Below are positions 40,360-62,231 of a stretch of DNA of 64,000 nt, piece after piece. The stretch covers positions 37,338,333 to 37,402,332 of the forward strand of contig OX419756.1 in NCBI GenBank assembly GCA_948567375.1, written 5' to 3'. Numbering within the stretch: the first letter of the stretch is position 1; each line of letters starts with the position of its first letter. The DNA comes from Lunularia cruciata (Eukaryota; Streptophyta; Marchantiopsida; Lunulariales; Lunulariaceae). Position numbers and translations under genes: made by a program. A model generated the notes under the pieces. That model did not search any database and was not told the origin of the DNA. It was given only the letters and a program-made list of their open reading frames with translations.

Positions 40360-40675
40360 TGTGAGCCGGCCTGTCTCTCACTCAAGATGAACCTCTGATG
40401 GCTATTATAGTAGCGCACCATGGACTAAGAAGGCAAGGAACCCCAACTCCATCATACTCCTCCAAGGCTAACACTCCAAGACTCAAGACATTGATCACTA
40501 GAGAACTCAATGAGAGAGAGATAGTTGCAAATGAAAGGATGATGAGTACCTCCTCACCCCTTGTTTATATACTTGTGAAATAGTTACGTACCAAAGTTAC
40601 TAATTACCGTAGTAACTCAAGTTACTAGACTACACAATATCACAATACCACACACATGAACAAATGGGTGTTACA
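40360..40675 (-). repeat. 3' LTR of element B, shortened
   Basis: It matches 45590-46277 at both ends. The middle is missing after GTTACTAGACTA, where it jumps to ATATCACAATACC. The sense PPT would be the weak purine run CCAGGGGTAAA just to its right on the + strand (40676-40686). Confidence 0.85.
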
Positions 40676-40986
40676 TTTACCCCTGGACTAGGTTTTCACT
40701 TTGTCCTCAAAGTGAAGGTCTCTCTACCTTCTATGGTACATCTTCAACTTATCATGGTTAATCCTATCAAAGTGTCTTCCTCCCAACTCCTTGAGATCAT
40801 AGGTGTAATTTCCCCACACCTTCTCCACATTGAAAGGTCCAAAGTACTTAGGCAAAAACTTCTTTTGCACTCTCTTGAATCAAATGGAATTAAACAACAT
40901 CACCCAATCACCTTCTTTGAAAGTCTCCACCTTCTTCTTGCCTTGCCTCTTGTCATAGCTCTCCTTTTGTTTCCTTTGGGCTCCAC

Positions 40987-42807
40987 TCAAACCATAGCAA
41001 CTGCTCTTGCCTCTTCCAACTCCATGAGTTGATCCTTCCTTGACTTCTCTGCATCACCTCCTTGTGCTTTCTTCAATCTCCTATGAATGCTTTGGAAGGT
41101 AGGAAGATCAAAGTGAATAGGTAAGGTAGACTCAATACCATACACCAATTGAAATGGAGAATATCCGGTGGAAGTCTTCATGGTTGTCCTATACTCCCAC
41201 AAAACTGCATGAATCCTCTTGTCCCAATGATGTTTAGCCCCCTCCATTTCTGCATCTTTGGCCAACATCATGCACAAGGTTTGATTGGTTCTCTCTGCCA
41301 AGCCATTGGAATTTGGCTTATAGGATGTAGTTACTCTATGTGTGATAGAGAAATGTTGTAGTATGGCTGTAGTAATGCTTCCTGTAAACTCTCCTCCTCT
41401 ATCAGAAACTAACTCCAAAGGGCATCCAAACCTAGTGATAATGCGTTCATAAAGAAATCTACCCACTTCATCTTCATTCTTGTCCCTCAATGGTCTAGCC
41501 TCAACCCACTTGGTAAGGTAATCAGTAACTACCACAATGTACCGATTGTTCCTTGGGGTTCTATTGAGAGGACCTACAAAATCAATTCCCCACTTCTCAA
41601 AAGGTCCTAGCAATGGAATTGATCTAAGTGGTGGAGTGGATGTAGACTTTCTAGCAAAAGCTTGACAAACATGACAAGTCTTGCAATAATCAAGACAATC
41701 CTTGAAAATCCCTCTCCAATGGTAACCTGCATCTAGAATCTTGAAAGCAGTCACCTTTCCTGCAAAGTGTCCTCCACATACTAAACCTTCATGAAACTCC
41801 TTTATGAGTAGGATAGACTCTTCCTTACCCACTGCTCTTTGAAGTAGACCATCTGCTCCTTGGTGAAAAAGAATATCCTCCACCATTGTGTAAGGTCTAG
41901 ATCTTGCTGCAAGGGCCTTCCTCTCCCTAGCATGCATCCCTTCTGGATAGTTACCTCTTGTCACAAAGTCCACAATCTCCTTGTACTCCATTGGAACCTC
42001 TTGAGTGACTGAGATTGTCATGAGCTCCTCATCCGGGAAGGAATCATCCACTAGCTCATCTCCATCATGATCATAGGCTCTAGATAACAAATCAACATTT
42101 GCATGTTTCTTTCCTGGCCTATCCTCAATGGTGTAGTCATACTCAAACAAGAGTATCATCCATCTTGCTAGTCTCCCTTCAACATTAGGCTTGTTGAAGA
42201 TGTACTTCAAAGCCTTGTGATCCATGACAATGGTGGCTTTCCCTGCAATCAAGTAGTGTCTAAACTTCTTGAGACCAAAGATCACTGCCAACCCTTCTCT
42301 CTCCGTGACAGAGTAGTTCTTCTCTGCTGAAACCATCTGCCTACTAGCATAAGCTATTGGATGATCATGCCCATCTTGGTCTAATTGACTAAGAGTGCAT
42401 CCTATAGCTAAATTAGAAGCATCAGTGTAGAGGATGAAAGGCTTACTCCAATCAGGTTTAGCAAGAATTGGAGCTACAACAAGGGATTGCTTGAGCTCCT
42501 CAAAAGCTTTGAGAGCCTCCTTGTCTTCCAAAATCACCATGTAATCTACACCCTTCTTCATGTAGATGGTCAATGCATAAGCCTTGTTGGAAAATGAGAA
42601 GATGAACCTCCTATAGTACCCAACCATCCCCAAGAATTGACGTAACTTTGTCAAGCTTGAAGGGAATGGAAGGTCTGAGATTTTCCTCACCTTCTCAACT
42701 GCTATTCCATCCTTGGAGATGATGTGCCCCAAAAGTAGACCTTCTTCACATCCAAAAATGCACTTCTCTGGGTTGAGTGATGCATTTGCCTCATCCAAGC
42801 ATTGCAA
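40987..42807 (-). CDS. Element B pol: end of RT, RNase H and integrase
   Basis: An uninterrupted 606-codon frame. It opens just downstream of the RT box FIDDFCVYGSK (42856-42870, another frame-open stretch), with LNPEKCIFGCEEGLLLGH and LRQFLGMVGYYRRFI (RT thumb). RNase H: FILYTDASNLAIGCTLSQ, YSVTEREGLAVIFGLKKFRH, VMDHKALKYIF. Integrase: HHCC zinc domain (GGHFAG, CKTCHVCQ), then Asp in WGIDFVGPL, Asp in LVSDRGGEFTG and Glu in NGLAERTNQTL, so the triad is intact. The annotated ATG is only the first Met of the frame; in the parent this would be part of gag-pol. It could supply RNase H and integrase domains, but not polymerase activity. Confidence 0.88.
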   Translation of the reverse strand: MQCLDEANASLNPEKCIFGCEEGLLLGHIISKDGIAVEKVRKISDLPFPSSLTKLRQFLGMVGYYRRFIFSFSNKAYALTIYMKKGVDYMVILEDKEALKAFEELKQSLVVAPILAKPDWSKPFILYTDASNLAIGCTLSQLDQDGHDHPIAYASRQMVSAEKNYSVTEREGLAVIFGLKKFRHYLIAGKATIVMDHKALKYIFNKPNVEGRLARWMILLFEYDYTIEDRPGKKHANVDLLSRAYDHDGDELVDDSFPDEELMTISVTQEVPMEYKEIVDFVTRGNYPEGMHARERKALAARSRPYTMVEDILFHQGADGLLQRAVGKEESILLIKEFHEGLVCGGHFAGKVTAFKILDAGYHWRGIFKDCLDYCKTCHVCQAFARKSTSTPPLRSIPLLGPFEKWGIDFVGPLNRTPRNNRYIVVVTDYLTKWVEARPLRDKNEDEVGRFLYERIITRFGCPLELVSDRGGEFTGSITTAILQHFSITHRVTTSYKPNSNGLAERTNQTLCMMLAKDAEMEGAKHHWDKRIHAVLWEYRTTMKTSTGYSPFQLVYGIESTLPIHFDLPTFQSIHRRLKKAQGGDAEKSRKDQLMELEEARAVAMV

Positions 42808-42815
42808 GACTTTGA

Positions 42816-44045
42816 TTAGGTGCTCAAAGTGCTCCTCCTTGCTCCCATAGACACAAAAGTCATCAATGAAGTATCCTTGCTTGAAGTAAATCTTGTAGGA
42901 GTATCCTTGCTTGAAGTAAATCCTTGAGAAGAGTGAACATCCTCTGCAAAACGAGCTCTCTTCTTCTCTTGTGCCAAAAGCTCCAAATTAAGACCCTTGG
43001 AGTTTGAGCACTCTCCCTTCTCATACTTGCTCTCAACCACATCTATGGATGCTATCCCCTTACCTTTGTTGGGATTAGGAGCCACTTGGGTTTCACTACC
43101 TCCCTCTTTCCCTCTATTGGCTCCCTCATAACCTCTTCCTCCATGGTAAGTGGAATTTGGGCAATTCCTTTGGATATGGCCTCTTCCTCCACAACCAAAA
43201 CAATTTCTATCATTGAAATTGTTGGCTGGTTGGCCTCCTCTATATGGATAGTTTCCATAACTCCTAGGCCCTCTCCCTGCATTCTGATCCACCTCTCTCT
43301 TCTCCCATAGTTGCACCACATTGATCTTGAGATCGGCAAGTTGTTCTGTGATGGGTTGGAGTGGATCTTTTGGTGGAGGTGCAAGAATTGGAGCAACTAC
43401 TACTTGTGGTGCAACCCTTGTCACCAAAGTATCAGAAGTTCCACCATACTTGTAGCCTTGAGGAGGATGCACAACGTCCTTCACCACCAAATCACTCTCA
43501 TCCACTTCCAAACTCTCCTCCATACGAATTGCAATCTTGATAGCTTCAACCTTGGAAGAAGGTTTCTCATATCTCATCTTACTTCTAATTTGTGGTCTCA
43601 ACCCTCCCACAAAATTCTTGGTGAGCATGGCCCCTATGCCAATCATTGTAGTCTCCACATCATCCCTACCCTTCCTCAACACTATGTGAAATCTGGACTC
43701 CAACTTTTCCACTCTTTCCACATAGACTCTCACTTTCTCTCCGTCTCCTTGCTTGAGAAATGTAACCTCACTCATCAATCTCTCATAACTCTCATCAGGA
43801 AGAAAGTTCTCAATGAGTGCTGATGTCAAAGTCTCCCAAGACTCCTCTTCCCCATCTCTCCTCTCTCTTGTTTGGTATTCTGACTCATACCATGTAAGTG
43901 CTACATCCTCAAAGAATTTTGGTAATAATGAGACCCACTCATTCTTCCTCCTCTCATTGTTTCCTATGCATGCTCTTTTGAAGTCTCTCACAAAGGCCTC
44001 CACATCTTCTCCATCCTTGCCAAAGAAAACCGGAAGTTTCCCCAT
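42816..44045 (-). CDS. Element B gag
   Basis: An intact 409-codon frame starting MGKLPVFFGKDGEDVEAFV. Capsid features include ALTWYESEYQ, SWETLTSALIENFLPDE, LKQGDGEKVRVYVERVEKLE and TKNFVGGLRPQI, standard for Ty3/gypsy gag. A Pro-rich linker and Arg/Gly-rich stretch lead to the CCHC zinc knuckle CFGCGGRGHIQRNC at about residues 280-295. The end, after RARFAEDVHS, runs through a duplicated 23-bp unit into RT sequence in another phase and stops at 42816; this is the deletion junction. Gag would form the particle and bind element RNA. Confidence 0.9.
   Translation of the reverse strand: MGKLPVFFGKDGEDVEAFVRDFKRACIGNNERRKNEWVSLLPKFFEDVALTWYESEYQTRERRDGEEESWETLTSALIENFLPDESYERLMSEVTFLKQGDGEKVRVYVERVEKLESRFHIVLRKGRDDVETTMIGIGAMLTKNFVGGLRPQIRSKMRYEKPSSKVEAIKIAIRMEESLEVDESDLVVKDVVHPPQGYKYGGTSDTLVTRVAPQVVVAPILAPPPKDPLQPITEQLADLKINVVQLWEKREVDQNAGRGPRSYGNYPYRGGQPANNFNDRNCFGCGGRGHIQRNCPNSTYHGGRGYEGANRGKEGGSETQVAPNPNKGKGIASIDVVESKYEKGECSNSKGLNLELLAQEKKRARFAEDVHSSQGFTSSKDTPTRFTSSKDTSLMTFVSMGARRSTLST
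42875..42935 (-). repeat. Tandem 23-bp repeat at the element B gag/RT deletion junction
   Basis: The unit GATTTACTTCAAGCAAGGATACT occurs twice with a few bases between copies, exactly where gag coding changes to RT palm coding. Protease and the RT fingers are missing at this point. Confidence 0.7.
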
Positions 44046-44256
44046 CTTAACCTCTCACTATCTTTCTTTCTCTCAAATGTTTTTTTTCTCTTTTCTTTTC
44101 TCTCACTCTATTACTAATAGAGTATATACATGACTAACACCATCTGAGAATTATCCACTCTAGGGAACACAAAAGGTTCAGGTTGCTCCAAGATTTCTAT
44201 AGCAACATCAAATCCTAGAGTGCATATTAATCTAAGTTGAAAGATTATCTCCATCA

Positions 44257-44730
44257 CTAATCTTGAGAACTAGCTGATGAAGGTGGTAGTATTTCTGTAG
44301 CTGTACTAAGACTCTCTCCAAGATTCTTCACCAAAGTTTCCAAAAGTGCTTTTACTCCACTACACTCATGTCCTTTTGGAAGTCCTTCAACTCCACAAAC
44401 CTCACACAACTCCTTGGTCTTAGATCTTCTCCCTCCCAATCTTGGTGAAGAAGGTCCAACATGCAAACCCAAGACAAGTAAGCCTCTCCTTTCCCTCAAT
44501 CTCTTGCTCTCAAAGGTCAATGGACATGAACTTGCCTTATGTCCCTTCTCTCCACATAGAAAGCACTTAGACTCACTCTTTCCTCCAAGTGGTGTAGGTT
44601 TTTGGATCCTCTCAATACTCTCTTCAAATTCTATTGTAAACTCTCTTTTCCTCAAATCCACCCCTACAATCACCTCAAACCCTTGGGGAACCTTGCATAA
44701 TCTCAATTTCCACTCTTGATGATCCTCCAT
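44257..44730 (-). CDS. Element B extra ORF with zinc knuckle, upstream of gag
   Basis: An intact 157-codon frame in the leader, between PBS and gag, on the same strand. Residues about 56-69 are a CCHC knuckle (CFLCGEKGHKASSC). A second Cys/His cluster follows (CEVCGVEGLPKGHEC, about 108-122). The N-terminus (EWKLRLCKVPQGFEVIVGV) has no recognised fold. It ends in a Ser/Thr-rich tail. Gag has its own knuckle 1.2 kb downstream, so this is a separate putative nucleic-acid-binding protein. It could be an independent accessory gene or a gag-like remnant. The function is not known to me. Confidence 0.65.
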   Translation of the reverse strand: MEDHQEWKLRLCKVPQGFEVIVGVDLRKREFTIEFEESIERIQKPTPLGGKSESKCFLCGEKGHKASSCPLTFESKRLRERRGLLVLGLHVGPSSPRLGGRRSKTKELCEVCGVEGLPKGHECSGVKALLETLVKNLGESLSTATEILPPSSASSQD

Positions 44731-45377
44731 GTTCCCAAGATGAATCTAAACACTCAAACATGCTTTTTGTTGATCTCAAACTCCTCATGCATGAGATCTC
44801 CACTCTGCAGAATTGACCCTTCCTCACAATGTCACTCAAATCTCCCAACCACTATGTCACAGTCCTCTGAAATTTTTCACACTTGATCACAACTCTAGGG
44901 TGTCCCTCCTTGCAAAATTTCAGATCTTTTCATTGAGCCATTTGGCCTAGAAACCTTTCTATTCAGCACCCATATTTCAGATTTGGTCTAAAAACCACCC
45001 CCTTCAATTCAAAAACTCATTTCTCCTTGAGAAAGAATGATCTTTCTCTTATTTTTGTGGCAGCAGGTAGGATACAATGCACTTAATTTTCTTGGAAATT
45101 TTCAGTACAATTCACTAAAAATTGAAGAAATGGAAGACTCTGTACAATTTTCCAGAGAGCAGGCAGTTGCGGGAGCACTTTACCCTATCAACTTTCAAAC
45201 ATTCTAGCCCAGTGCGCATAAAAGCTCTCACAATAATTTCAAGTGTGCTAACTGAAAGATAACCTAAGCTATCATGTGTAGAAATCTCAAGTCCAGATCT
45301 CAAACTTGAGATTTTGCCCAAAATCACCTTAATCTCCAAAATCTGCAATCCACCTCACACAATCTCTCCAATTCCTC
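44731..45377 (-). other. Element B leader, no gene recognised
   Basis: AT-rich, with several 10-20 bp pyrimidine tracts on the + strand and no conserved frame. It may be a packaging or untranslated leader. A 77-codon frame at 45115-45348 has no support. Confidence 0.4.
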
Positions 45378-45611
45378 TCATGTGTACAAGATGTACAAAA
45401 TCACCTCAAAGACATCATAATGAACTACAGGGTATAAAAATGGATCTTGATTCTCTAACATAAATTCAGCCCTCTCCTCTCCTAATGTTCTCTCCAAGTG
45501 AGCTCTCATAGCCTCCTTCTGCCTAATGTAGAATTGAACGCGGAACATTATCTTGCCTTCTAGAGAGGTCCCGGCAACGGAACCAAAAATGTGAGCCGGC
45601 CTGTCTCTCAC
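45378..45611 (-). CDS. Element B leader peptide frame next to the PBS
   Basis: The frame passes from the 5' LTR edge through the PBS. The convincing part starts at an internal Met (MFRVQFYIRQKEAMRAHLER, about 45545) and ends with ENQDPFLYPVVHYDVFEVIL and a stop at 45378. It matches in pattern the leader frames of element C (53346-53567) and of the insertion at 14077-14361. The start is unknown. It may be a conserved upstream ORF controlling gag translation. Confidence 0.45.
   Translation of the reverse strand: MRDRPAHIFGSVAGTSLEGKIMFRVQFYIRQKEAMRAHLERTLGEERAEFMLENQDPFLYPVVHYDVFEVILYILYT
45568..45585 (-). promoter_or_regulatory. Element B primer-binding site, tRNA-Glu type
   Basis: In sense, TGGTTCCGTTGCCGGGAC begins four bases after the 5' LTR end. 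It is complementary to the 3' end of a plant tRNA-Glu (…CCCGGCAACGGAACCA). Confidence 0.75.
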
Positions 45612-46277
45612 TCAAGATGAACCTCTGATGGCTATTATAGTAGCGCACCATGGACTAAGAAGGCAAGGAACCCCAACTCCATCATACTCCTCCAAGGCTA
45701 ACACTCCAAGACTCAAGACATTGATCACTAGAGAACTCAATGAGAGAGAGATAGTTGCAAATGAAAGGATGATGAGTACCTCCTCACCCCTTGTTTATAA
45801 ACTTGTGAAATAGTTACGTACCAAAGTTACTAATTACCGTAGTAACACAAGTTACTAGACTAAAAGTCAAGTAAAGTCAAAAAGTAGAAAGGAATATCCA
45901 TTCACATGGGCATATTCCCCTAAGCATGTGGTCCTATCTTGACCCAACCACTAAGTCAAGGATTCCTTCACATGGGCTATCCTTGGACTAAAGAAGAATC
46001 CAAAACAAAAAGGCTTGCGGGCCCAAGAGTTCTCAACTCTTTCCTCAAAGCCAAACACCTAGGAATAATACCCAGTCAACACACTAAAATCCAAAATAGT
46101 GGTGCTCATCTTTTCTACTTCCTCTAAAGTAAGGTCCCCTCTATCTTAGCTATGACTAACTTTAGCTAACCATGACTAATATAGAACCATCCTTTATCTC
46201 TAAATAATATCTCTTAAGTACTTGTAATACCGAGCTAAATATCACAATACCACACACATGCACAAATGGGTGTTACA
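45590..46277 (-). repeat. 5' LTR of element B
   Basis: 688 bp, + strand TGTGAGCCGGCC to GGGTGTTACA. It is full length and matches the solo LTRs at 16700-17378 and 34928-35621. Confidence 0.9.
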
Positions 46278-47015
46278 GTCCACCCATCAACTCCTGGAAA
46301 ACATTGCTGCTTTGAAAAAGAACTCTTTGTTACTTCACAAAATTCCACTGTCAGCCCTTCATCTTTCTCTCAAAACTCCTCCTGTCATTTCCCATCAACT
46401 CCTAGAAAACATGCTGCTTCAAAAAGAACTCTTTGTTACTTCACAAAATTCCACTGTCAGCCCTCTGTTCCTCTCAAAACTCATACAACTTCTCCTTTGA
46501 AAACTCCTCTGTCCTTTTCCCAAAAACCCTATTATCAGCCCTTTATCTTTCTCTTGAAATTCCTCCTGTCATTTCTCATCAACTTCATGGAAAAACATTG
46601 CTCTTCAAAAAAAAGGAACTCTTTCTTACTTCACGAAATTCCACTGTCAGCCCTTTGTTCCTCTTGAAACTCCTGCAACTTCTCCTTTGAAAATTCCTCT
46701 GTCCTTTTCTCAAAAATGCTATAGTCAGCCCTTCATCTTTCTCTCAAAACATCTCCTATCATTTCCCCTCAACTTCATGAAAAACATTGCTGCCTCAAAA
46801 CTCTCTTGTCACTTCCCAAAACCCCATTGTCAGCCCTTTGTTTCTCTCGAAAACTCTTTCTGTCCACCCATCAACTCCTGGAAAACATTGCTGCTTCTAA
46901 AAACCTCTTGTCACTTCCCAAAATCCCAATGTCAGCCCTTTGTTTTCTCTCAAAACTCCTGCAAACTTCTCCTTCCAAAACTCCTTTGTCATTTCCCAAA
47001 AAGCCCTACTGTCAA
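46278..47015. repeat. Minisatellite array in segment D, left part
   Basis: Pyrimidine-rich tandem units built around AACTCCTGGAAAACATTGCTGC, CTGTCAGCCCTTCATCTTTC and CTCCTCTGTCATTTCCC recur here at least five times with variation. The array continues at 50796 after LTR A6. Long + frames in it reflect unit structure, not a gene. Confidence 0.8.
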
Positions 47016-47402
47016 TGTGGTGCCCACATTTTTTGTTTTTTTCAAAATAAAGGAGAAGAAGTGCATAGAGAAGTCGGATTGCACCTATATGACCAAAGAA
47101 AGCAAAGAAAGGAGTCTTCGGGAGGAAACCCGAAGTAAAGTGACTTCAAGTCATAAGGCGAATTACTCAAAAATGCCATGTCAGCATACAACCCAAAGTA
47201 AATTGTCTTTGGATCGGGGGGGAGCTCAACCCGAGGCGAAGACGGTCTTACAACCTTTCATCGGGGCAAGAAATTCAAGAAGGGGCCGTTTCAAAACTGG
47301 TGGCTCATACGCGCAAAGGTTGATTGACAGTGACAGGTGCATGTTGGAGGTGTGATTTCTTGGTAGGAACTCAAAGTGACGGAAGACAAAGAAGCGCAAC
47401 TC

Positions 47403-47409
47403 TATAAAA
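47403..47409 (+). promoter_or_regulatory. TATA box of A6
   Basis: TATAAAA, 27 nt upstream of the ATG at 47430. The upstream U3 is conserved across copies, with GGTGTGATTTCTTGGTAG-like sequence near 47350. Confidence 0.65.
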
Positions 47410-47429
47410 ATCGAAACTGCAACGACGAA

Positions 47430-50002
47430 ATGTCGAGCAATTTTCCTTTGCCGTTGAGGAGTCATCTTGCAGGTGATCGGAGAAAGGGAAATAGAGTTGG
47501 ACTTGTGTTAGTGCGCAAGGAGGAAGTTGCGAGAGTGAAATCAAGAGAAAGTGAGAAAGTAGAAGAGATGGGAGGAGGGAAGAAGAACTCCAAATTTGCA
47601 GTGAGAAATCATGCAATTCGGAGATTAGATGTGATAGCAAGGATCAAAGTCTTGAGCCAACTTCGGATCACCTTTCTGGCATGGAACTGGAGCGTGAGTT
47701 TTCCAGGATTCATGACAGAATTCATCGAGAGTAAGTGTCTTGATGGACCTGAGGAAGAAGGAAAGAGAGGAAATCCGGCTCGCTGGACAGAGTCGGATTG
47801 GAGACTTGTACTCGAGAAGGAGGCAGGCTCGGAGCAGGGAGCCACGTTCTTGGGGAAAGGAGAGATAGCCCAAGAAACGCAGGAGGTGAGAGATGCCTTC
47901 TTGTCAAAAAGAACAAAGAATGGGTATAAGGTTGAGAGCTACAAAGATCCTATCAAGAGGGGAATTCTGAGTGCTCTCATGGCAATCTTGAAGCCAAAGA
48001 GAACGACTTATGTGATGAAACACCAAGCGGTGTTCTTCCATAAGTTTTTTGCAGGAGAACCTATCAATTAGGCGAGGTGTTTTCATGGGAGAACAAGGTA
48101 GATGTGTGGAATTTGCGGGATAAGTTTCCTCCACATTACATTGTGCCGTTTGCAGCACACTTCTACCTTGGGCTCAATCTATTGACCTTGGCGGAGCGGA
48201 ATCGGATGGTGTCGCACTTCCATTTGGATGTGCGAAAGGAGGTGGATGTCGAGGAGCAGCAATATATTCTCCAAATCCGGAGCACGGACGACTACTACAC
48301 GAAGACAGGAAAGAACGTGGAGGTCATAGTAAGTACCCTGACAAAGAAGAGGAGTCGGCAAGGAGAAGCCAAAGAAAGCAAGAAGCCTCGGAAGATGCAG
48401 AGAAGTAACCCGAGGTGAAGTATGGTGGTGATTGTGTCGGAAGATGAAGACTTAGAAGGCAAGGCAGAGCTCTGGACGGAGGACTCGGAACATGAGGAGG
48501 AACCTGAACTGACATTGTAGAGTGGAGATACGAGCAGTGACAATTAAGAAGGAGGAGAGATGACATCGGCGCCAGCGGCTAATGAGGCAGATGAAGAAGT
48601 GCAAGTCGAGGTGGAAGCCAAAGATAACTCGCCGTTGGAAGACAAAGTTCCGGTGGCCGAGGAAAAGAAGATTGCAGTGCAGCAAGGAGTTCGCTCCCAA
48701 CGTAAGGCAAAGTGTGAAGTAGGGCCGAGTAGAGGGAAGGAAGAGGTAGAAGAAAGCTCGGGTAGTGAGGCATCAATCCCAATACAAAGACTCCAGAAAA
48801 GAAGGCGAGTATCAGGAGCACACGAGGAGAAAAGAGAGACCACTCCACGGGAGGAAGTAGTTGCTAGTGATGGAGTCGATTACCTGCGAGAGGTAGTGTG
48901 CCCATTGTTGGTGAAGTTGGAGCACAAGAAGAAGGAGATGCAGTCAACTTGTCCAGAGGTGAAGACTGTTTTGCAAGTCCTATTGAGATTAGAGGAAGAG
49001 AACTCGGAGTTGAAGAGAGGTATAACTCGAGGTGAGGAGGAGAGAGAAGTACTACGAGCAAAGGCAGTAGAGCGAAGTCAGGTAATTGAAGACCTGAAGA
49101 GAGAAGTAAATTATCGAGAGGATCTTGTGAGGAAGAGTGACATAGCAAGGGAAAGACAGGTAGCTCAATTTGAAATCTTGAAGCAGCAGTTTGCTGATTC
49201 AAGAGTAGAACTTATCCATGCTATGGCGAGGGTAGCAGCGAAGGATCAAGAGCTCGATAGAGTGATGGAGAGTATGGAGGAGAAGAAGCAACTCTGGCAA
49301 AGAGAGTTGTCTGCGCGGTATAAAGAAGAAGACCAATTACGAGAATTACTTCGTAATCAGGAAGAGAAAGTTGTACAGAAGGAGAAGGAGAAGGAGATGG
49401 TGGAGGCCGAATTCAAGGTAGAGTTGGAGATGTACCAAGAGGAATAGCTTGCAGATCGGGAACGAGAACGGAAGACAAGGCTGGAGCCATTGAAGGAGAT
49501 AGTCCTCAAGGTGAATGCGATGTTAAGTACAGAAGCCAGCGTTCAAATTGAAGAACCACAACTGCACGAGTTTAAACTGTTGGTGCAGGAGACGAGGCGA
49601 AGACAAGCGAAAGACACCGAGATGAATGCCTTGTTAATAAAACTAAGAACTCGTGTAGACAGAAAGGTGTTAGAGGAAGAGGATAACATTTCAATTAGAT
49701 TAGACTTAGTGAAAATAGAGTTAGAAAAACTTTGGAAGGATGTTAGAGCAAAACCCAAAGTAGATAACATAGGAGTCCAAATGTCTTTGGAGTTACCATC
49801 AGAGACATTAGAGAAGAGTGGGTCGGGAGATAAGGAGTTAGATAGATTACCCCCTAGTGAAATTTCAGATCAGGAAAGAGAATTGCTGGATCTGGTAGGA
49901 GAAGTAGGAGATCTGAAACCCGAGGAAAAAGTGATAGGAAGTAAGATTACTTTGGGTTTGGGTTTGAAAGCCGATGACAAAGTAGACATCGGATCGGATT
50001 AG
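47430..50002 (+). pseudogene. LTR-encoded coiled-coil protein frame, best-preserved copy (A6)
   Basis: About 857 codons from MSSNFPLPLRSHLAGD to a terminal VDIGSD-stop. Residues 1-270 are the conserved block: KKNSKFAVRNHAIRRLDVIA, FLAWNWSVSFPGF, ARWTESDWRLVLEKEA, GATFLGKGEI, SALMAILKPKRTTYVMKHQA. Residues about 300-440 are an acidic linker with a basic patch and SGSEASIPIQRLQKRRRV. Residues about 460-670 are a long coiled coil (LVKLEHKKKEMQSTCPEVK, EEENSELKRGITRGEEERE, RKSDIARERQVAQFEILK). The rest is a second coiled coil with an acidic tail. Defects: TAG at 48069 in a Trp codon, one frameshift near 48072, then TGA 48416, TAG 48520, TAA 48545 and TAG 49445. No gag, zinc-knuckle, enzyme or membrane motif is seen. 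A structural or nucleic-acid-associated role is a guess. Confidence 0.75.
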
Positions 50003-50795
50003 TAACATATTTGAGATTTGAAGAGGTAGATATGAAGAGGTGCATTGTTAATTTGGATATGCAGGTTAGAACAGTTTAGGTAGAACGGTATAGTTGTTAG
50101 AACTGTCGATTGCTTCACTATTTAAGAATGGCATTTGTAGGAAAATGTTGTTCAGTGCTCATTATTTCTGAGAATAGATAAAGCAAAGTGATGTGAAGCA
50201 GTGCTCCTTGCTTGAGCTTGATTCTGAGTATCAACTTCGTGTCTATGTTTGTGAGTGTTTAGAGAAATTCAAAGTGCAAGTCAGAGTGCTTGTTGGATGT
50301 TGGATTCCGCAGCCTTGATCTTCATTTTGTGTGTTTGATCCTGAGTGAAGTGCAATCAAAGCAATGCCTTGACAGATCTGAGAGGAATTGTAGTGTTGGT
50401 AGTATTCTGCATTTGTGAGTGTAGTGCGAAGTTGATGTGAAGCAATTTTGATTGAGGAAGTTGTGCCTTCAGTGGAGGGGTGGAACACAATTCTGAGGCG
50501 AAGTCGTTTTGTAGTGAAGTGTTGTTTTCAGGAGAGCCTGAATCATCACAATCAAGATTGTTTGGAAAGATTTGATGGAGTTGTGATTAAGGAGTGTGAA
50601 TTTGAGACAAGACCACGAGTCTGTGCTTGTTACTCTCTTTTGGGTGTGGTTTCTACCTGAGAGATTAAAGACGCAACCAAGAAGAACTGAAATTGTTACT
50701 TTGCTTTGTATTTGACCAATTCTGACTTGTATCTTTGCGGGAACAAACTTTACTTACCTGATTACCGCAAAAGTGATATTTGCCGGGTTGTCATA

Positions 50796-52560
50796 GTCAA
50801 CCCTTCATCTTTCTCTCAAAACTCCTGCAAACTTCTCCTTCAAAAAACTCCTTTGTCATTTCCCAAAAAGCCCTACTGTCAGCCCTTCATCTTTCTCTCA
50901 TAACTCTTGCAAACTTTTCCTTTGAAAACTCCTCTGTCATTTCCCAAAAAGCCCTACTATCAGCCCTTCATCTTTCTCTCAAAACTCTTGCAAACTTCTC
51001 CTTCAAAAAACTCCTCCATCATTTCCCGAAAGAACCCTACTATCATTTCCCGAAAGCCCTTTGTTTCTCTCAAAGACTCCTGCAAACTTCTCCTTTGAAA
51101 ACCTCCTCTGTCATTTCTCCTCAACTCCTAGAAAACATTGTTGCTTCAAAGAACCTCTTGTCACTTCCCAAAATCCCACTATCAGCCCTTTGTTTCTCTA
51201 CAAAACTCCTTCTGTCCACCCATCAACTCTTGGAAAACATTGATGCTTTGAAAAACCTCTTGTCACTTCCCAAAATCCCACTGTCAGCCCTCTGTTTTCT
51301 CTCAAAAATCCTGCAAACTTCTCCTTCCAAAACTCCTCTGTCATTTCCCAAAAGAACCCTACTGTCATTTCCCAAAAAGCCCAACTGTCAGCCCTTCATC
51401 TTTCTCTCAAAACTCCTGCAAACTTCTCCTTTGACAAACTCCTCTGTCATTTCCCAAAATAACCCTTTTGTCATTTCCTGAAAGCCCTTTGTTTCTCTTG
51501 AAAACTCTTGCAAACTTCTCCTTTGAAAAACTCCTCTGTCATTTCCCCTCAACTCCTGGAAAACATTGCTGCTTCAAAGAACCTCTTGTCACTTCCCAAA
51601 ATCCCACTATCATCCCTTTGTTTCTCTTGAAAACTCCTTCTGTCCATCCATCAACTCTTAGAAAACATTGCTGCTTTGAAAAACCTCTTGTCACTTCCCA
51701 AAATCCCACTGTCAGCCCTCTATTTTCTCTTAAAACTCTTGCAAACTTCTCCTTCCAAAACTCCTCTGTCATTTCCCGAAAGAACCCTATTGTCATTTCC
51801 CAAAAGCCCTCTGTTTCTCTCAAAAACTCCTGCAAACTTCTCCTACTAAAAACTCCTTTGTCATTTCCCCTCAACTCCTGGAAAACATTGTTGCTTCAAA
51901 AAACCTCTTGTTACTTCCCGAAATCCCATTGTCAGCCCTCTGTTTCTCTCAAAAACTCCTTCTGTCCACCCATCAACTCCTAAAAAGCATTGCTGCTTCA
52001 AAAAACCTCTTGTCACTTCCCAAAATCCCACTGTCAGCCCTCTGTTTTCTCTCAAAACTCCTGCAAACTTCTCCTTTCAAAACTCCTCTGTCATTTCCCG
52101 AAAGAACCCTACTGTCATTTCCCTAAAAGCCCATTGTCATCCCTTCATCTTTCTCTCAAAACTCTTGCAAACTTCTCCTTTGAAAAACTCCTCGGTCATT
52201 TCCCGAAAGAACTCTATTGTCATTACAGAAAGCCCTCTGTTTCTCTCAAAAACTCATGCAAACTTCTCCATCAAAAAACTCCTTTTTCATTTCCACTCAA
52301 CTCCTAGAAAACATTGCTGCTTCAAAAAACCTCTTGTCACTTCCCTAAATCCCACAATCATCCCTCTATTTCTCTTGAAAACTCCTTCTGTCCATCCATC
52401 AACTCTTAGAAAACATTGCTGCTTTGAAAAACCTCTTGTCACTTCCCCAAATCCCACTGTCAGCCCTCTGTTTTCTCTCAAAACTCCTGCAAACTTCTCC
52501 TTTGAAAAAAACCTCTGTCCTTTTCTGAAAGAACCCTCTTCTCAAAAATTTCCTACTCAG
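50796..52560. repeat. Minisatellite array in segment D, right part (81/82-bp and about 103-bp units in higher-order repeats)
   Basis: CATCTTTCTCTC recurs at 50806, 50888 and 50969 (82 and 81 bp apart). The GAAAACATTG motif recurs in pairs about 103 bp apart, and the pairs recur every 324-428 bp (about 51128, 51556, 51880, 52308). Units differ by a few percent and by indels. Both strands contain open frames across several units. Confidence 0.82.
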
Positions 52561-53707: not shown

Positions 53708-54106
53708 TGTAATACTCCAAGGACAGGAGAAGAGAGAAAACACAGACTTCACACTCAAACATTCGATGCTCCAAAGGAGCACCTTCTCTTTATTATATAG
53801 ACAAAGAGGATCTCTTCCAAGGAAGCTCTACCATAGGATTAGATACATAGATATGTGACATGTCAGCAAGCTCTACCCTTGGATTACTTACTTGGATGGG
53901 TGGCATGTTAGTCTAGGTCCTATCTAGCTAGTCAAACAAGCTTTGACTGGAGGGAATCTTTTAGGGAATCTTTTAGAGAATCTTCATGTAGGAGTCTCAG
54001 AATCATGTAAGGTACCATTGGAAAGCTCTCAACAAGACAACCTAGGGGGAAGGGAGGGAAAATGTATAGATTCCTCCCCCCAACGGAGGAGAGGCCAGCC
54101 TTTCCT

Positions 54107-54139
<33 letters not shown>

Positions 54140-54471
54140 TAATCTACACATTTTTAGGCCTCCAAAATTGCCTTCAAAGATTTCAAGCATTTTTTGGTTC
54201 CTATGTTATTAGTAGAAATCCCCTTTTGGTGATACCTCTTTCTGATCTGTTTAGTCCATCATGTGTTACATACTTCTAGATGTTACCAAACCATATGTCT
54301 ATCTATTGGTTCTAAAGTTCTCAAGTCCATTTTGGTTTCTGCCCTATTAGTAGAAGTACTCTTTCGTGATACTTCTATCTGATCTATTTCAACCATCATG
54401 TATAACATCATTCTAGATGTTACCAAACCAAATTTCACATCTAGATCATATGGCTAGCTCTTGGTATTACA
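53708..54471 (-). repeat. 5' LTR of element C
   Basis: 764 bp, TGTAATACTCC to GGTATTACA on the + strand, paired with 34048-34781. It contains the 28-G homopolymer at 54112-54139. Confidence 0.88.
54112..54139 (+). repeat. 28-bp poly-G tract
   Basis: An uninterrupted run of 28 G. The partner LTR has GGGAGGGAGGAGG here, so the run is an expansion in one LTR or an assembly artefact. Confidence 0.9.
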
Positions 54472-55582
54472 AAGATAATATCACAATTTGATTACACTTA
54501 GTGAAATTAGAAATAGATAAACTTTAGAAGGATGTAAGAGTGAAGCCCAAAGTAAATGACAAAGGAGTACAAATATCTTTGGAGGTACCATCGTAGATAT
54601 TAGAGAAGAGTGGGTAGAGAGATAACAAGTTAGATAGATTACTTGCTAGTGGAATTGTAGATCAGGATGAAGAAGTAATAGAATTGGTAGAGGAATTATG
54701 AGTTATGGAACCCAAAGACAGTAGTAGTAAGGTTACTTTGGGATTGGGATTGAAAGCCTAGGAAGAAGTAGACATTGGATCAGAGTAGTAAAAGTTTTGA
54801 GATCTGAAGAGGCAGATATGAAGAGGTGCATTTTCATTTTGGATCTTTACGTTAGAAGGGTTGTTAGGAAACGGTATAGTTGTTAGTAATTGTCATTTGC
54901 TTCACTATTTAAAGGTGGCATTTGCAGTCATATGTTGTTCAGTGCTCAAAATTTCTAAGAATAGATAAAGCAAAGTGTTGTGAAGTAGTGCTCGTTGTTT
55001 GAGCTTAATTCCAAGGGTCAACTTTGTGTGTGTTTGTGAGTTTGTGGAGAAATTCAAGTTCAAATCAATGTGTTTGTTGGATGTTCGATTCCACAGCCTT
55101 GATCTTCATTTTGTGTGTTTGATCCTGAGTGAAGTGCAATTGAAGCAATGCCTTGATAGATCTAAGAGGAATTGTAGTGTTGGTAGTATTTTGCATTTGT
55201 GAGTGCAGCGTAGACTTGATGTGAAGCAATTTCAATCAAGGAAGTTGTGCCTTTAGTGGAGGGGTGGAACACAATTCTGAGTCAAAGTCATTGTAGTGAA
55301 GTGTTGTTTTTGGGAGAGCCTAAATCATCACAATCAAGATTGTTTGAAAATATTTGATAGAGTTGTGGTTAAGAAGTGTTAATTCATGACAAGATTGTGA
55401 ATTGGTGCTTGTACTCTCTTCTATGTGTGGTTTCTACTTGCAAGACTAAAGACGCAACCAAGAAGAAATAAATTGTTACTTTGCTTCATATTTGACCAAT
55501 TTTGAATCGTATCTCTATGGGAACTAACTTTACTTCCTTGATTACCACAAAAGTGATATTTGTCGGGTTGTCATATGATTTT

Positions 55583-55600
55583 TGGTGCTGTTGCCGGGGA
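55583..55600 (+). promoter_or_regulatory. A1 primer-binding site, tRNA-Asp type
   Basis: TGGTGCTGTTGCCGGGGA lies seven bases after the 5' LTR end. It matches the complement of plant tRNA-Asp 3' sequence (…TCCCCGGCAACGGCGCCA) except for two C-to-T changes. Athila-type elements use this primer. Confidence 0.85.
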
Positions 55601-57495
55601 TACAAATCTCGGAAGTGGAAGAATACAAAGCCAATTTCAAACTAGGCTATTAAACCAATATGAATGTCCGCATTAAGAGAACAATAGGAAGAGAGAGTTC
55701 AAAGACAAACATTGCAACATGAAGAAGAAGAGCGTCTGAAGCTCCAATCTACTCTTGATTAAACCAAGCGCAAGGCATTGAACTTTCAACTTCTTCATGA
55801 AGTGTAAGAAGTCTTGCGAGAAACTTGACTAAAAGAAAAGGCAAAGGCGGTTGGCAAGGCTACTTTGCATCCCCATCTTCCAAGAAGAAGAAAGATTCAA
55901 GTGGGCAGACATATTCTCTACGACCTAGTACATTGACTTCCTGTAAAGTTCTAAAGGAAGTTGCATTTCTAAAGAACTTTGTTCAAGAAAAGACAACATG
56001 AACATTAATGAAAGAAGAATGTCAACACCTTCTACATATGATTTCTTAGTTGTCTCAAAGGAATCTTGAAGATCACTCCAAAGGTGTTGAGCTTGATTCT
56101 CTCATTCCGGTTGAAATTGACACACTCAGAGAAGAAATTGTTGAGAAAGACTCTACTACAAACTTGACTAATTGGAACCCTTGGGCCAACAACACGGTGT
56201 CGATACCAATCAACCCTTTGGCTTTGTAAAGTTCAAACTTACCCCAGCCGATTCCACCAAGTCAAACGATGACTTTATTGCCTATCACCTGACACGCCCA
56301 TCAAAAATGTAAAGGGACAAAACAAGACAAAGACCTTGATGAATTCATCAAAGAATTCAAAGTCATCTCTATTGCCAACAAGGAACATGACTTGGCAGAT
56401 TGTTTGCAAATTCTCCCAAGTTTGCTCTAAAAGAAAGCTCAAAGCTGGTACACCCATATCACTTAGAAGGGGTTTGTACTGGCAGACTGGGCAGACTTGA
56501 GAAAAAATGTCATGGAACGCTTCCGAGAAGTTGATTACAACACGAGTGTCTTTGCAGCACTCAATGATTTGGATAGAGGTAAGAAGGAGAAGTTGAGAGA
56601 CTACTCTGAGCGGTTCATGGCGCTCTTGAATCGAGTCCCAAAGCAATCGGGGGTGGTGGGTTACTCTGATGCCCAAGCCATCACCTGGTTCCTAGGAGGA
56701 CTCTCACTAAAGATTCAGATCTATGAGGCGGCTCACTCTCACTCTGCCGGCAATCAAAGAAACCGGGAGAAGAAAGGCAAGAAGCCCAGAAGGAGAGCTT
56801 CTTGCAGTACATCCCCTTCTTTGGAGGAATCCTCCACGTCTTCAAGCTCTTCTTTGGAATCCAAAGAAGAATCAAAGCCAAGACAAGTACAAAGACGTGG
56901 GGGTAAGAAACCAGTGACACCCTCAGCAAAGAGTGTACATAAGGCTGATACCAAGCTTGATGCTCTTATAAAAGAGTTTTTGGATTTTAAGATCCAGATG
57001 ATTGGGGCAAAGGATAGAAGGAAGCCTCCATCATTTGGCAGATCCAATGTATGGTGCACCGCGTGTGGCAAATCAGGCCATGCAAACACGTAATGCAATA
57101 CTCAGAATGCATTCTCGATGCAGCAGAATGATTGGGTTCCAAGATGGAATCAGGAAGAGGAAGAGGAGGCGGTGTACCAAACACAAGAGGTACCACCTCA
57201 GGCAAGCACATCGTATAAAGGTCCAAGGTACGGACCAAGGGAGTATAACCCCAATGCTCCTCCATGAAGACCACCAATGAGCAACCAGAATCAACCTCAG
57301 AATATTGCACCTGGAGCATGTTACAATTGTGGCTCGATGGAACTTTGGTCTCCAAACTATCCAGAGCCAAGAAGGCAAATTGTGTACATTCCTTTGCGTG
57401 GAAATTGCAAAGGATCGGGTCATATAGGCAACCAATGCCCTCATCCACCAAACCCAAAGCTGCCCTATAAAGTATGTACAGACCCTGGTTGAGCG
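55601..57495 (+). pseudogene. A1 gag with zinc knuckles
   Basis: The N-terminal third (55601-56490) is badly decayed, with many stops. The capsid C-terminal part is open at 56497-57093: VMERFREVDYNTSVFAAL, LRDYSERFMALLNRVPKQ and ITWFLGGLSLKIQ, then a Lys/Ser-rich linker and a first knuckle CTACGKSGHANTxC. A second cluster at 57277-57492 reads CYNCGSMELWSPNYP, followed by CKGSGHIGNQC, which lacks one standard Cys position. Gag would form the particle. Confidence 0.75.
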
Positions 57496-58147
57496 TGTAG
57501 CGCTTGAGGCGAAGGGTGATACAGCTATAAATTGTATAACACTAAAGGAGGAAAGACCTCAAGAAGGAAGCCCGGCCTTAGAAGGAGAATGGCCAGACCT
57601 TGAAATTTTGAAGGTTGAGACATTAGTAAGAAGTAAGAACACAAGTAAGAAGAAGCATAATCTTGAAGAACTAAGTACAACCTTGTTGTTTTCAAGGAAG
57701 GCAAAGAGGCTGTGCCCAAAGGAATCCCTTTTGCTAAGGAGGAAAAGATCCTAGCAAAAGCCAAAGCTAAAGCCTTGCAAAAAGAACTCAAGGAAGCAAT
57801 ACTCAGGACCCGAGACTTGAGTTTGGAGGAGGAGACAAAGACAAAGATGAAGCCTCCAGTTTTTCCGGCGGACATCCTATCCAAAGTGAAAGGTCTGATC
57901 CAAGCCAAGGTGGGCCAACCTGAGGAACCTTGGGTTAAGACCACTAGTACTCCCATCACAATCATGAAGCATCTCGAAGTCAAATTTGGACATGGAGAGA
58001 CTTTGAACCCAAAGCCAAAGGCAAAGACGGTGAAATTGGGAGAGGGTACCCTAATACGATATTGTAGTGGATTTAGTAGCCACAAATGCAAATATCATAT
58101 TTAAGCAATTGTGGGAAGACAATAAGCTATTGAAAAGGTAGCTGAAT
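57496..58147 (+). pseudogene. A1 charged gag-protease linker
   Basis: Lys/Glu-rich coding remnant. The longest piece is 57712-58104 (KEEKILAKAKAKALQKEL, VFPADILSKVKGLIQAKV). No domain recognised. Frame changes on both sides. Confidence 0.5.
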
Positions 58148-58828
58148 TTGGCACTCAAGAAAGTAAGAGTGATGTCTAAGAAAGACCTGGCCGCTGTATA
58201 TTTTATTGAACAAGAAGATCTTGGATCTCCCGAGGTTGATGCGGAGATTGCAGGGTGCATGATCACATTGATATCCATTGATTCAAGTTCCAGTATGAAT
58301 GTCATGACCAAGGATACTGCAAATCGACTTGGGTGTCATACGTTTGAGCCAACGCCCCGAGTCTTGAAATTTGCAAACCAAACCAGGAGACCACCATTGG
58401 GCATGCTGTCAAAAATTACCATGATTATTGGAGGGTGCCCTTCCAATTAAACTGCATTGTGTTACAACCAGTGACCAAAATTGGTTACCCATTGTTGATC
58501 GGAAGACCCAAGTTGTATAGTGCTCAAGTTGTGGTGGATTGGCACCAGCTGAAGCTAAGGTTCAAGGACTATGAGTTGGATGAAGATTCCACATCTCCGG
58601 GAAACAAGTTCATCAAAAGACGAGGATGAATCCAAAGACTCATCATCTTTGTCCTCAGAAGACTCTGACAACAAAGTCCAAGTTAATTACTTGGAATGCT
58701 ATGAGGTGGATGTAGAAGACAAAGACCCATATGACCTCACCTCAGATGAACCTAACTTGGAGGAAGGGGGTTTGATGGTAGCTCAACTCAAATTAAGCCG
58801 AGTAAGCCACGTTGAAGGAGTCATCAAC
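58148..58828 (+). pseudogene. A1 aspartic protease and acidic spacer
   Basis: The active-site region reads ISIDSSSSMNVM, where retroelement proteases have Asp-Ser/Thr-Gly, so the Gly is Ser. The C-terminal signature YPLLIGRPKLYSAQVVVDW follows in another frame (58435-58629). The spacer at 58571-58823 is acidic (YEVDVEDKDPYDLTSDEPN). It is cut at 58828 by A7 with TSD TCAAC. Confidence 0.75.
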
Positions 58829-60752
58829 TGTGACAACCCGACAAATATCACTTTTGCAATAATTGGGTAAGTAAAGTTTGTTCCCACAGAGATATGAGTC
58901 AAAAATGTCCAAAAACAAAGTCAAACAGTAACAATGTAGTTCTTCTTGGTTGTGTCTTTAATCTCTCAAGTAGAAACCACACCCAGAAGAGAGTAACAAG
59001 CACTGATTTGCAATCTTGTCACAAATTCACACTCCTTCATCACAATACCTTCAATTCTTTCCAAACAATCTTGATTGTGATGATTCAAGCTCTCCCAAAA
59101 ACAACATTTCATTGCAAAATGACTTCACCTCAGAATTTTGTTCCACCCCTCCACTGAAGGCACAACTTCCTCGATCAAAATTGCTTTACATCAACTTTGC
59201 ACTGCACTCACAAATGCAGAATATTACCAACACTACAATTCCTCTCAGATCTGTCAAGGCATTGCTTTGATTGCACTTCACTCGGGATCAAACACACAGA
59301 ATGAAGATCAAGGCTGCGGAATCCAACATCCAACAAGCACATTGACTTGCACTTCGAATTTCTCCACACACTCACAATTACAAACACAAAGTTAATACTC
59401 AGAATCAAGCTCAAGCAACGAGCACTGCTTCAAATCACTTTGCTTTATCTATTCTCAAAAATAATGAGCACTCAACAACATAATACTGCAAATGCCACTT
59501 TTAAATAGTGAAGCAATCGACAATTATCTTCCCAATGTACCTCTTCCTAACAACTCTACAAACTTGCAGAACCTAAATGACAATGCACCTCTTCATATAT
59601 GCCTATTCACATCTCAAATTTGTTACTAATCCGCTCCGATGTCTACTTCTTCTTCGGCTTTCAAACTCAAACCCAAAGTAACTTCACTTCCTACTTCTCT
59701 ATCCTCAGGTTTCACAACTCTTATTTCCTCTACCAATTCTACTGATTCTCCACTCTGATCTACAATTCCTATCACAAGTAAACCTTCTAAATCTCTATCT
59801 CTCGACCTACTCTTCTCTAAAATGTCAAATGTCAAATCCAAAGACACTTGCACTATTACTTCTGCAACTTTGGGTCTAGCTACTATCAATTCCTTTACTA
59901 ATTCTATTGTGTCCTCATCAAGAATTGTAATTGAAAGCATGGGTACACTATCTACGTCTTCAATTTGCAACCCACTTTCTCCTAATAACTCATGTAACTG
60001 ACCCGAAGACACTTACAGACTGATCTTGCACTTTGGGTTTATTCACTACAGCTACTTCTCCTTCAATTCATGTTCCATCTTCAATCAAAAATGATATTGA
60101 AGTCATGGGTATCCTAACTATCTTCTTTCCCTACTCTAACTTCCTTTGATCCCTCTAGCAAAACTCCCAAAGTCACCTTCATTGCACTCCAAGGTCCGAC
60201 TTCCTTGGGTTGAATCATATTTGTCTTGAGATAAAGTCTTTAGACTTGAAGTCATGTAAACCCAAAGTTCAAAGTACGAAGTCCGAAGTACGAAGTCCAA
60301 AGTCACATTGACCCAAAGACACCAAACTACTTTGTACATCTACTCCCAAAACTTCAAATGCTTGTTTCTTCTTCTATAGACCTCCAAACTTTGCCATTTT
60401 GGTGGCAATGGAAAGTTCTAAACGAGATGCTTCCAACGAGATATAACACACTTGATTTAAACTTGTGGTCATTGAGATATGGCCCCCGCAATATTCCTGA
60501 CTTGTAACATTCATTTCGATGCAAAGAAACCCTCCTTCGGCGTCGGGTCCAAGTTTTTCCCTCCTCTGACACAAAGTAAGCTTCTTCGGGTTTGATCTGG
60601 TCCGAGTCCTTCTTCCTCTAACACAAAGTCTACTCCCTTGAGCTTGATCAAAACACACGTTTCCACTCGTTTCTTCTCCATTTGGTTTCAATTTGGTTTC
60701 AGCAAGGCACTTTTTCAAAACTCGTCCAAAATGAAAAATGTGGGTACTACAT
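58829..60752 (-). mobile_element. A7: short family-A solo LTR (1924 bp) in A1 pol
   Basis: The ends are TGTGACAACCC (58829) and GGGTACTACA (60752), with TSD TCAAC at 58824-58828 and 60753-60757. It contains the C-terminal LTR-frame piece (minus, 59626-60012; VAEVIVQVSLDLTFDILEKS) and the subfamily-specific 5' half with the minus frame 60374-60718. It inserted after A1, so the short subfamily was active later than this A1 copy. Confidence 0.9.
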
Positions 60753-60757
60753 CAACC

Positions 60758-61780: not shown

Positions 61781-62231
61781 TCAGGTATTGAAGAAGAAAC
61801 TGGTTGAAGCACCAATCATGAGGACCTCGAATTGGGGCATCCCTTTTCATGTATATGTGGATACTTTGTCCATGGCAATTGGAGTAGCCTTGAGTCAGAA
61901 GGACAACAAGAAGAAAGATAACCCCATCTATTATGCCAACCGACAACTTTCAGTTTCAGAAAAGAACTATTTGACTACTGAAAGAGAAGCACTCGGAATG
62001 GTGTATGCCTGCAAGAAATTTCATCACCACCTACTGGGATACAAGTTTGTCTACTATGTTGACCATTATGCATTGCAACATTTGGTCAAGAAGGCAGATT
62101 TGTCCGGGCAAATTGCACGATGTATCTTGTTGTTACAAGAATTCACATATATTGTACAAGTAAGGAAGGGAGCTTTGCATTCAAATACGGACTTCCTGTC
62201 CAGGTTAGAAACTCAAGACCAGGAATGGTAG
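61781..62231 (+). pseudogene. A1 RNase H
   Basis: Open from 61755 to 62231 after a frame change: FHVYVDTLSMAIGVALSQ (catalytic Asp in VDT), YANRQLSVSEKNYLTTEREA (Glu), FVYYVDHYALQHLV (Asp) and a final AlaLeuHisSerAsn-like segment with SerAsnThrAsp for the last acidic residue. One of the better preserved domains of A1. Confidence 0.8.

Follow-up and report, generated by a model that had tools for sequence, protein, structure and literature searches.

The subject of this report is a long terminal repeat (LTR) at positions 47016–50795 of a 64,000-nucleotide stretch, here called the window, of the liverwort Lunularia cruciata (GenBank assembly GCA_948567375.1, contig OX419756.1, positions 37,338,333 to 37,402,332 of the forward strand). 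The LTR contains, in sense orientation, a protein-coding open reading frame (ORF) of 811 codons, which would lie in the unique 3′ part (U3) of the LTR. The features at the locus, including the flanking target-site duplication (TSD), are as follows, with positions counted in the window unless given as LTR positions.

47016–50795, plus strand: solo LTR of 3780 bp with ends TGTGGTGCCC...TTGTCATA, recognized from the sequence and from its genome copies
47011–47015, no strand: left TSD GTCAA, directly at the LTR end, from the sequence
50796–50800, no strand: right TSD GTCAA, directly at the LTR end, from the sequence
47403–47410, plus strand: TATA box 1, CTCTATAAAAATC, putative promoter of the U3 gene, assigned by conservation
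47568–50002, plus strand: U3-borne gene, 811 codons from ATG to TAG(TAA), broken in the window copy, delimited by codon constraint and by the ratio of nonsynonymous to synonymous divergence (dN/dS)
47568–48290, plus strand: N-terminal block of about 240 residues, bounds approximate, 54–62% amino acid identity to the F2 and F3 versions
48700–49660, plus strand: charged coiled-coil-like region, bounds approximate, from composition and heptad period
50119–50126, plus strand: TATA box 2, TATTTAAG, putative genomic-RNA promoter, kept in aligned LTR stretches
50173–50183, plus strand: AATAGATAAAG, putative poly(A) signal, just downstream of TATA box 2

A perfect TSD and LTR termini had been reported here by an earlier reading of the window made without database searches (the sequence-only reading), and both were confirmed, GTCAA lying directly at both ends. 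The canonical LTR ends in other genome copies are TGTGG...GTTGTCACA, and the window copy ends in CATA. A search of the assembly (565.8 Mb, 74 contigs) with the first 985 bp of the LTR gave 6,496 first-look candidates, of which the best 40 were scored and found 91–100% identical, the query locus itself among them; 20 of the 40 loci, plus further stretches, were retrieved with their surroundings. Both ends are in view in 18 LTR copies of 3733–3809 bp. Eleven of the 18 are lone LTRs with a perfect 5-bp TSD, L018 and L023 being counted as such after a 2-bp shift at the mutated LTR start, and a further one (L028) has a TSD matching at four of five positions; four adjoin a primer binding site (PBS) or polypurine tract (PPT), and two (L009 and L021) have no clean TSD. 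The LTR at 47016–50795 is a solo LTR, one of many in the genome. Its insertion site is a tandem array (46283–52544) whose repeat units include lengths of about 102, 322 and 428 bp.

Five full elements were found, composed of the LTR copies L011 and L029 (E1), L031 and L014 (E2), L032 and L017 (E3), L015, L033 and L020 (E4), and L019 and L030 (E5), and in all five the LTR adjoins the PBS or PPT. The PBS, TGATTTTTGG..CC..TGC..GGGA.ACAAATC, which we take to resemble the 3′ end of tRNA-Asp, as is characteristic of the Tat/Athila lineage, directly follows the LTR, and the PPT, GAGGGAGGGGGTA, directly precedes the 3′ LTR in E2, E3 and E4. Both outer ends of E1 carry the TSD ACATC; its 5′ LTR (3767 bp) includes the ORF region, with the PBS immediately next to it, and its 3′ LTR shows this sequence too, but in a form damaged by insertions and one deletion. 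The internal part is about 6.2 kb long in E2 and E3, and in E1 it has one insertion and one loss, each of about 0.7 kb. The two LTRs of E2 form a separate clade with support of 100/99 (bootstrap not quite settled). The LTR–LTR distance is 0.0675 in E2, 0.067 in E4 and 0.129 in E3 (over only 1.3 kb compared), and a value of 0.23 for E1 was discarded, row L029a being misaligned at an insertion. When 400 bp of the internal 3′ end joined to the first 500 bp of the LTR were used as a query, 5,915 genome candidates were obtained, and in all 40 that were scored (the query's own place included) the internal end, PPT and LTR start are joined in a single stretch. The frame is located in the LTR and not in the internal region, as the sequence-only reading had maintained, because PBS or PPT adjoin the LTR in the five elements and all 40 scored junctions agree. 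The element on which that reading had relied, presumably the one with the internal region 55576–63603, does have PBS and PPT directly adjacent to its LTRs, but these LTRs are incomplete: of the 5′ LTR only 1.1 kb remains, with most of the ORF gone, and the 3′ LTR is interrupted by the insertion of an LTR from another subfamily. By itself it is insufficient as proof of an LTR-borne frame, whereas the elements elsewhere in the genome suffice. Nested in its 3′ LTR, which begins at 63604 and continues past the window, is L035, a solo LTR of the F2 subfamily (TSD ATAGC) with its own version of the gene.

The start ATG lies at LTR position 552 (window 47568), with an ATG at the matching place in the nested F2-subfamily LTR, and the frame ends in tandem stops at window 50000–50005. 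When W11111m and W24434a are compared with the young group of LTR copies, the third-position excess of changes starts in the stretch from LTR 588 on; no third-position pattern is seen at LTR 396–539, and the ATG region (540–587) shows little change at any position. The gene is accordingly delimited, by its codon pattern, as 811 codons from the ATG at LTR 552, the open frame upstream appearing to be leader; because the codon constraint begins only near LTR 552, the length of about 860 codons given by the sequence-only reading was an overestimate. The frame that it described is present, but in the window copy six in-frame stops and, compared with L009, one frameshift interrupt it. With a 277-residue query, searching the genome at the protein level gave 23,187 candidates, the best 140 of which were scored at 81–100% identity; 45 of these 140 are stop-free over the matched stretch (by a hand count that includes the query locus itself). 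Among the retrieved copies, the longest run of codons without a stop is 735. Because terminal branches in the young group measure 0.036–0.058 (bootstrap not settled), an old, star-like burst is suggested. Young full elements with identical LTRs and open frames, which the sequence-only reading had proposed to look for, were not seen in the material examined, and no very young LTR pair was found there.

Constraint on the frame was assessed by the dN/dS comparison that the same reading had recommended. Between subfamilies (pairs drawn from the young group, W11111m, L021b and the two parts of a split copy), dN/dS is 0.13–0.21 at synonymous divergences (dS) of 0.52–0.93 over up to 851 codons, whereas in the five other frames (four pairs) it is 0.90–1.66 in four and 0.27–0.29 in the mirror frame. 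The N-terminal block of the F2 version (in L035) is 61–62% identical in amino acids to that of F1, with a ratio of 0.10–0.12 and synonymous sites near saturation, and that of the F3 version (window 19039–19875) is 54–57% identical with a ratio of 0.18. As yardsticks, the capsid part of gag and the reverse transcriptase (RT)–RNase H gave 0.09 (85 codons) and 0.20 (152 codons) between two elements; these come from a trimmed set, earlier values (pol 0.44, gag 0.20) having been discarded for window frames that were partly out of register. Four pairs within the young group give 0.35–0.42, as expected for comparisons of decayed copies. In 23 of the 30 alignment rows, taken as the young group (W11111m, W24434a, W28052b, L021b, L026b, L029a and L032 excluded), variants common to at least four copies comprise 107 synonymous, 130 nonsynonymous and 4 stop changes, those in two or three copies 93, 117 and 19, and singletons 161, 322 and 31, respectively. 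The variants in at least four copies are more often synonymous (Fisher p 0.0024) and less often stops (p 0.008) than singletons, the class of two or three copies being excluded from both tests. These codon patterns show that the 811-codon ORF was under purifying selection while the element was active. Neutral evolution of the frame, to which the sequence-only reading had drawn attention as a possibility, describes only the decay of single copies, whereas between subfamilies the constraint is strong.

The non-coding ends of the LTR (1–551 and 2986–3780) are far more alike between subfamilies than the third codon positions of the gene (552–2985). The first 270 bp and last 700 bp differ by about 5–15% when W11111m and L021b are compared with the young group, and third codon positions in the same comparison differ mostly by 20–50%, in patches. 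Either strong constraint on the ends or recombination homogenizing them around diverging gene blocks may account for this likeness.

The predicted protein has a conserved N-terminal block, 54–62% identical across subfamilies, followed by a coiled-coil-like region with a heptad period of 3.5, in keeping with the block and long coiled coils described by the sequence-only reading. The block is rich in aromatic residues and contains the motifs FLAWNW, KRGNP.WTESDWRLVLG, QAVFFH and PPHY..PFAAHFY; an acidic linker (composition of L009) separates it from the coiled-coil-like region, in which the heptad period is strongest around residues 421–546 (L009, read with X at stops). A single-sequence search of a database of 5.8 billion proteins gave 1,986 candidates, none at E ≤ 0.001, and an alignment-based search gave 7,999 scored candidates with no homolog, both searches reaching only proteins that share 5-residue words and fall within a length band. 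Pieces of the ORF gave matches below cut-off only in Pfam (with E limits of 1 and 10) and no match in PDB at E up to 1, and Rfam gave 0 matches over the whole window. The motif line QAVFFH..FAGEPINWARCFH...PPHY..PFAAHFY is, we presume, reminiscent of the plant transposon domain PF20167, for which hmmscan listed no match. Most likely the protein is an accessory factor that serves the retroelement in trans and assembles with itself, the coiled coil being the part that would mediate this assembly; this is the weakest step of the proposal.

Three conserved elements surround the ORF. The CTATAAA of TATA box 1, at LTR ~387, lies some 165 bp upstream of the ATG, where codon constraint is absent. It is kept in 26 of the 27 alignment rows that have sequence at this position, and the remaining row (L029a) is misaligned next to an insertion. 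TATA box 2, about 115 bp after the stop codon, is found with small changes in 12 of 12 aligned long and short LTR stretches, and 11 of the 12 (all but W11111m) retain AATAGATAAAG, some 50 bp past it, likewise with small changes. We consider it probable that the LTR is about 3.78 kb long because its U3 carries a complete sense-orientation accessory gene with its own transcription unit. Placement of the gene in U3, rather than in the repeated part (R) of the LTR, is deduced from TATA box 2. In the proposed arrangement, TATA box 1 would drive an mRNA with a leader of about 130 nucleotides, which would pass through the ORF and TATA box 2 and end at the poly(A)-like signal in R. The genomic RNA would start at TATA box 2, the poly(A) signal being contained in a short R, so that U3 and the gene would sit only at its 3′ end; reverse transcription would copy the gene into both LTRs, and LTR–LTR recombination would leave solo LTRs still holding gene, promoter and terminator.

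Some observations weigh against this interpretation. None of the five full elements has two undamaged LTRs: besides the damaged 3′ LTR of E1, the 5′ LTR of E2 lacks about 0.37 kb, that of E4 lacks most of the ORF, that of E3 was matched over only 1.3 kb, and the 3′ LTR of E5 was not found within the stretch retrieved. All 20 rows covering at least 750 codons carry in-frame stops, 1–11 each (the insertion-bearing L029a, with 14 stops, is excluded from this count); no stop-free row exceeds 583 residues among the 140 scored protein matches, and an intact frame was not seen in the copies examined, the 140 having been scored by likeness to one old copy, which does not establish its absence. Codon-style ratios on short non-coding parts of the LTR scatter between 0.38 and 1.38, codon position by itself does not separate shared from singleton variants (p 0.47), and the share of stops among variants in two or three copies (19/229) is as large as among singletons (31/514). 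Finally, conservation is the sole basis on which the TATA boxes and the poly(A) signal were assigned.

The state of the copies is also what might commend a chance or passenger frame, that is, captured DNA hitchhiking in the LTR without function, since all closely examined copies are broken. Yet the constraint is confined to one frame, begins at the ATG, is as strong as that on gag and RT, and extends over deep divergence; the passenger explanation is already contradicted by the frame-specific dN/dS and seems to us very improbable. Still less credible, to the point of being negligible, is an internal frame flanked by short true LTRs, with the 3.8-kb unit a separate element. Shorter LTR variants, about 1.9 kb in length and missing most of the ORF, do occur in the window, but they match the long LTR over its 3′ 1 kb, in which the C-terminal end of the ORF and TATA box 2 lie, two of the three have a similar first stretch, and PBS/PPT junctions and TSDs define the long unit as the LTR. 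This possibility, which the sequence-only reading had itself raised, is excluded by the TSDs of E1, its ORF-bearing 5′ LTR with adjoining PBS and the sister LTRs of E2, and is already refuted by E1 together with the 40 of 40 scored junctions.

Two further alternatives concern how the gene would be expressed. If its sole source were the 3′ LTR, read through a spliced form of the genomic RNA in the manner of retroviral accessory or env-like genes, TATA box 1 would be no promoter; a genomic RNA starting at TATA box 2 would presumably carry U3 once, at its 3′ end, and transcripts of sag, the LTR gene of mouse mammary tumour virus (MMTV), are described as starting within env, within U3 and at U3/R of the 5′ LTR (PMC4667437). 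We regard this route as unlikely in view of the TATA box that 26 of 27 rows keep some 165 bp upstream of the ATG, although no codon constraint acts there. Less likely again, and distinctly improbable, is that TATA box 1 starts the genomic RNA, with R running from about LTR 420 and the gene as first cistron, similar to ORF0 of Retrosat2 but inside R and U5 (the unique 5′ part). The conservation of TATA box 1 would suit this arrangement, as would the extra ORFs upstream of gag-pol in rice Retrosat2 and FRetro3, with ORF0 also in RIRE3 and RIRE8 (PMC3485330). However, R would then exceed 2.7 kb, and TATA box 2 and the poly(A)-like signal are kept both in long LTRs and in short LTRs without most of the ORF, a retention of TATA box 2 that is expected of a core genomic promoter. 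An accessory gene in U3 with its own promoter and terminator remains the preferred interpretation.

The element family is a Ty3/gypsy LTR retrotransposon: pieces of E2 and E4 match Retrotrans_gag, zf-CCHC, RVT_1, RT_RNaseH and Integrase_H2C2 in Pfam above cut-off, and an aspartyl protease below cut-off only, and the structure shows TG...CA ends, a 5-bp TSD and adjacent PBS and PPT. An integrase core (rve) was found only at window 6655–7254 and is not tied to the LTR family of 47016–50795. The top match overall of the RT–RNase H protein from L033 has 75% identity over 99% of the query; among matches from named organisms, the nearest are liverwort proteins, from Riccia sorocarpa (73% identity, covering 91% of the query), Marchantia polymorpha (75% identity, covering 64%) and Calypogeia fissa (54–55%). 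Bursts of Ty3/Gypsy elements have been described for L. cruciata with a 580-Mb assembly (PMC9985172). The other copies and elements of the family in the window are listed here.

7315–11111, minus strand: second complete ORF-bearing solo LTR, 3797 bp, TSD GTCAT, 81% identical
24434–30190 (24434–26023 and 28052–30190), plus strand: ORF-bearing LTR in two parts, split by a nested minus-strand short LTR
31645–34046, plus strand: truncated ORF-bearing LTR, aligning to LTR 290–2668
54472–55575, plus strand: 5′ LTR remnant of the element with the internal region 55576–63603
55583–55600, plus strand: PBS TGGTGCTGTTGCCGGGGA, presumably tRNA-Asp-like
55576–63603, plus strand: internal region, with gag at 56467–57093, RT–RNase H in 61587–62231 and a nested short LTR at 58831–60751 (minus strand)
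63591–63601, plus strand: PPT GAGGGAGGGGG, from the sequence
63604–64000, plus strand: start of the 3′ LTR of the 55576–63603 element, continuing past the window

The sequence-only reading had counted at least five further copies with the same architecture, of which the one at 7315–11111 is a complete LTR and the others are incomplete: those at 18575, 22176 and 31771 are fragments or belong to other subfamilies, and that at 24434 is a single LTR interrupted by a nested short one. The LTR copies that measure about 1.9 kb lie on the minus strand at 3289–5163, 26072–28043 and 58831–60751; all three keep the C-terminal end of the ORF, TATA box 2 and U5, the rest of the ORF being absent, and are probably derivatives that lost the gene. 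A repeat starting TGTAATACTC is present at 34048–34781 and 53708–54471; it is LTR-like, its second copy ends GTATTACA, and it occupies the same point, inside the gene, in two ORF-bearing LTRs, through either one ancestral insertion or a shared target. Another Ty3/gypsy-like element on the minus strand (40360–46282), with frames of 412 and 666 amino acids and flanking repeats 99.3% identical over 273 bp, is the youngest-looking element noticed in the window.

The arrangement is worth comparing with other extra genes of retroelements. Most of the sag protein gene of MMTV lies in the U3 of the LTR and is preserved in solo LTRs, and several promoters serve it, one of them inside U3 (PMC4667437). 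The liverwort gene resembles sag of this mouse betaretrovirus in lying, by our placement, in U3 of the LTR, and differs from it in its 811 codons, coiled-coil-like product and plant host, with no envelope or infection known. Searches of the protein database, Pfam (above cut-off) and PDB disclosed no relation to Sag, no direct comparison with Sag having been made. The parallel with sag drawn by the sequence-only reading therefore holds for position in the LTR and not for sequence, in which no relation was detected.

The env-like ORFs of plant retroelements lie 3′ of pol and have membrane features. Those of Athila4, Calypso, Cyclops2 and SIRE1 are, like the liverwort gene, extra frames in plant retroelements (PMC4093653), but they are internal and not LTR-borne. 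The rice Ty3/gypsy elements Retrosat2, RIRE3, RIRE8 and FRetro3 share with the liverwort family unusually long LTRs (about 3 kb) and an extra ORF of unclear function; their ORF0, however, is described as lying upstream of the gag-pol ORF and not in the LTR (PMC3485330), and in another account as lying between the 5′ LTR and the retrotransposase (PMC4093653). ORF2 of 15 common-bean Ty3/gypsy families likewise encodes an extra retroelement protein of unclear role, with up to 939 amino acids and some SMC domain matches among the table rows available, but it sits between the retrotransposase ORF and the 3′ LTR in opposite orientation, and the LTRs of these families measure about 0.46–1.24 kb among the same rows (PMC4093653). 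The ORF0, ORF2 and env-like frames are defined by lying in the internal region, where the LTR-borne gene does not lie, and Pfam gave no match above cut-off for its ORF. A plant LTR-borne gene was not found in the literature searched, which was judged mostly by titles and beginnings of abstracts and is not proof of absence.

LTRs are usually treated as regulatory and are ordinarily non-coding. In this family a large protein gene has been kept in the LTR under selection about as strong as that on gag and RT, over deep divergence, and every insertion, even one reduced to a solo LTR, leaves a copy of the gene. Repeated liverwort genes annotated as 'unknown' may therefore be LTRs, which calls for caution in annotation. 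More tentatively, the LTR may be a self-contained mobile gene, consisting of promoter, 811-codon frame and terminator, whose solo LTRs form by thousands a dispersed gene family and whose product serves the retroelement in trans or has been adopted by the host. If so, solo LTRs, which are commonly interpreted as relics, would each be a copy of the gene equipped with a promoter. The liverwort LTR would then represent an independent case of the MMTV sag arrangement, a plant counterpart, of independent origin, of a retroviral LTR-borne gene, encoding a protein without a relative found so far.

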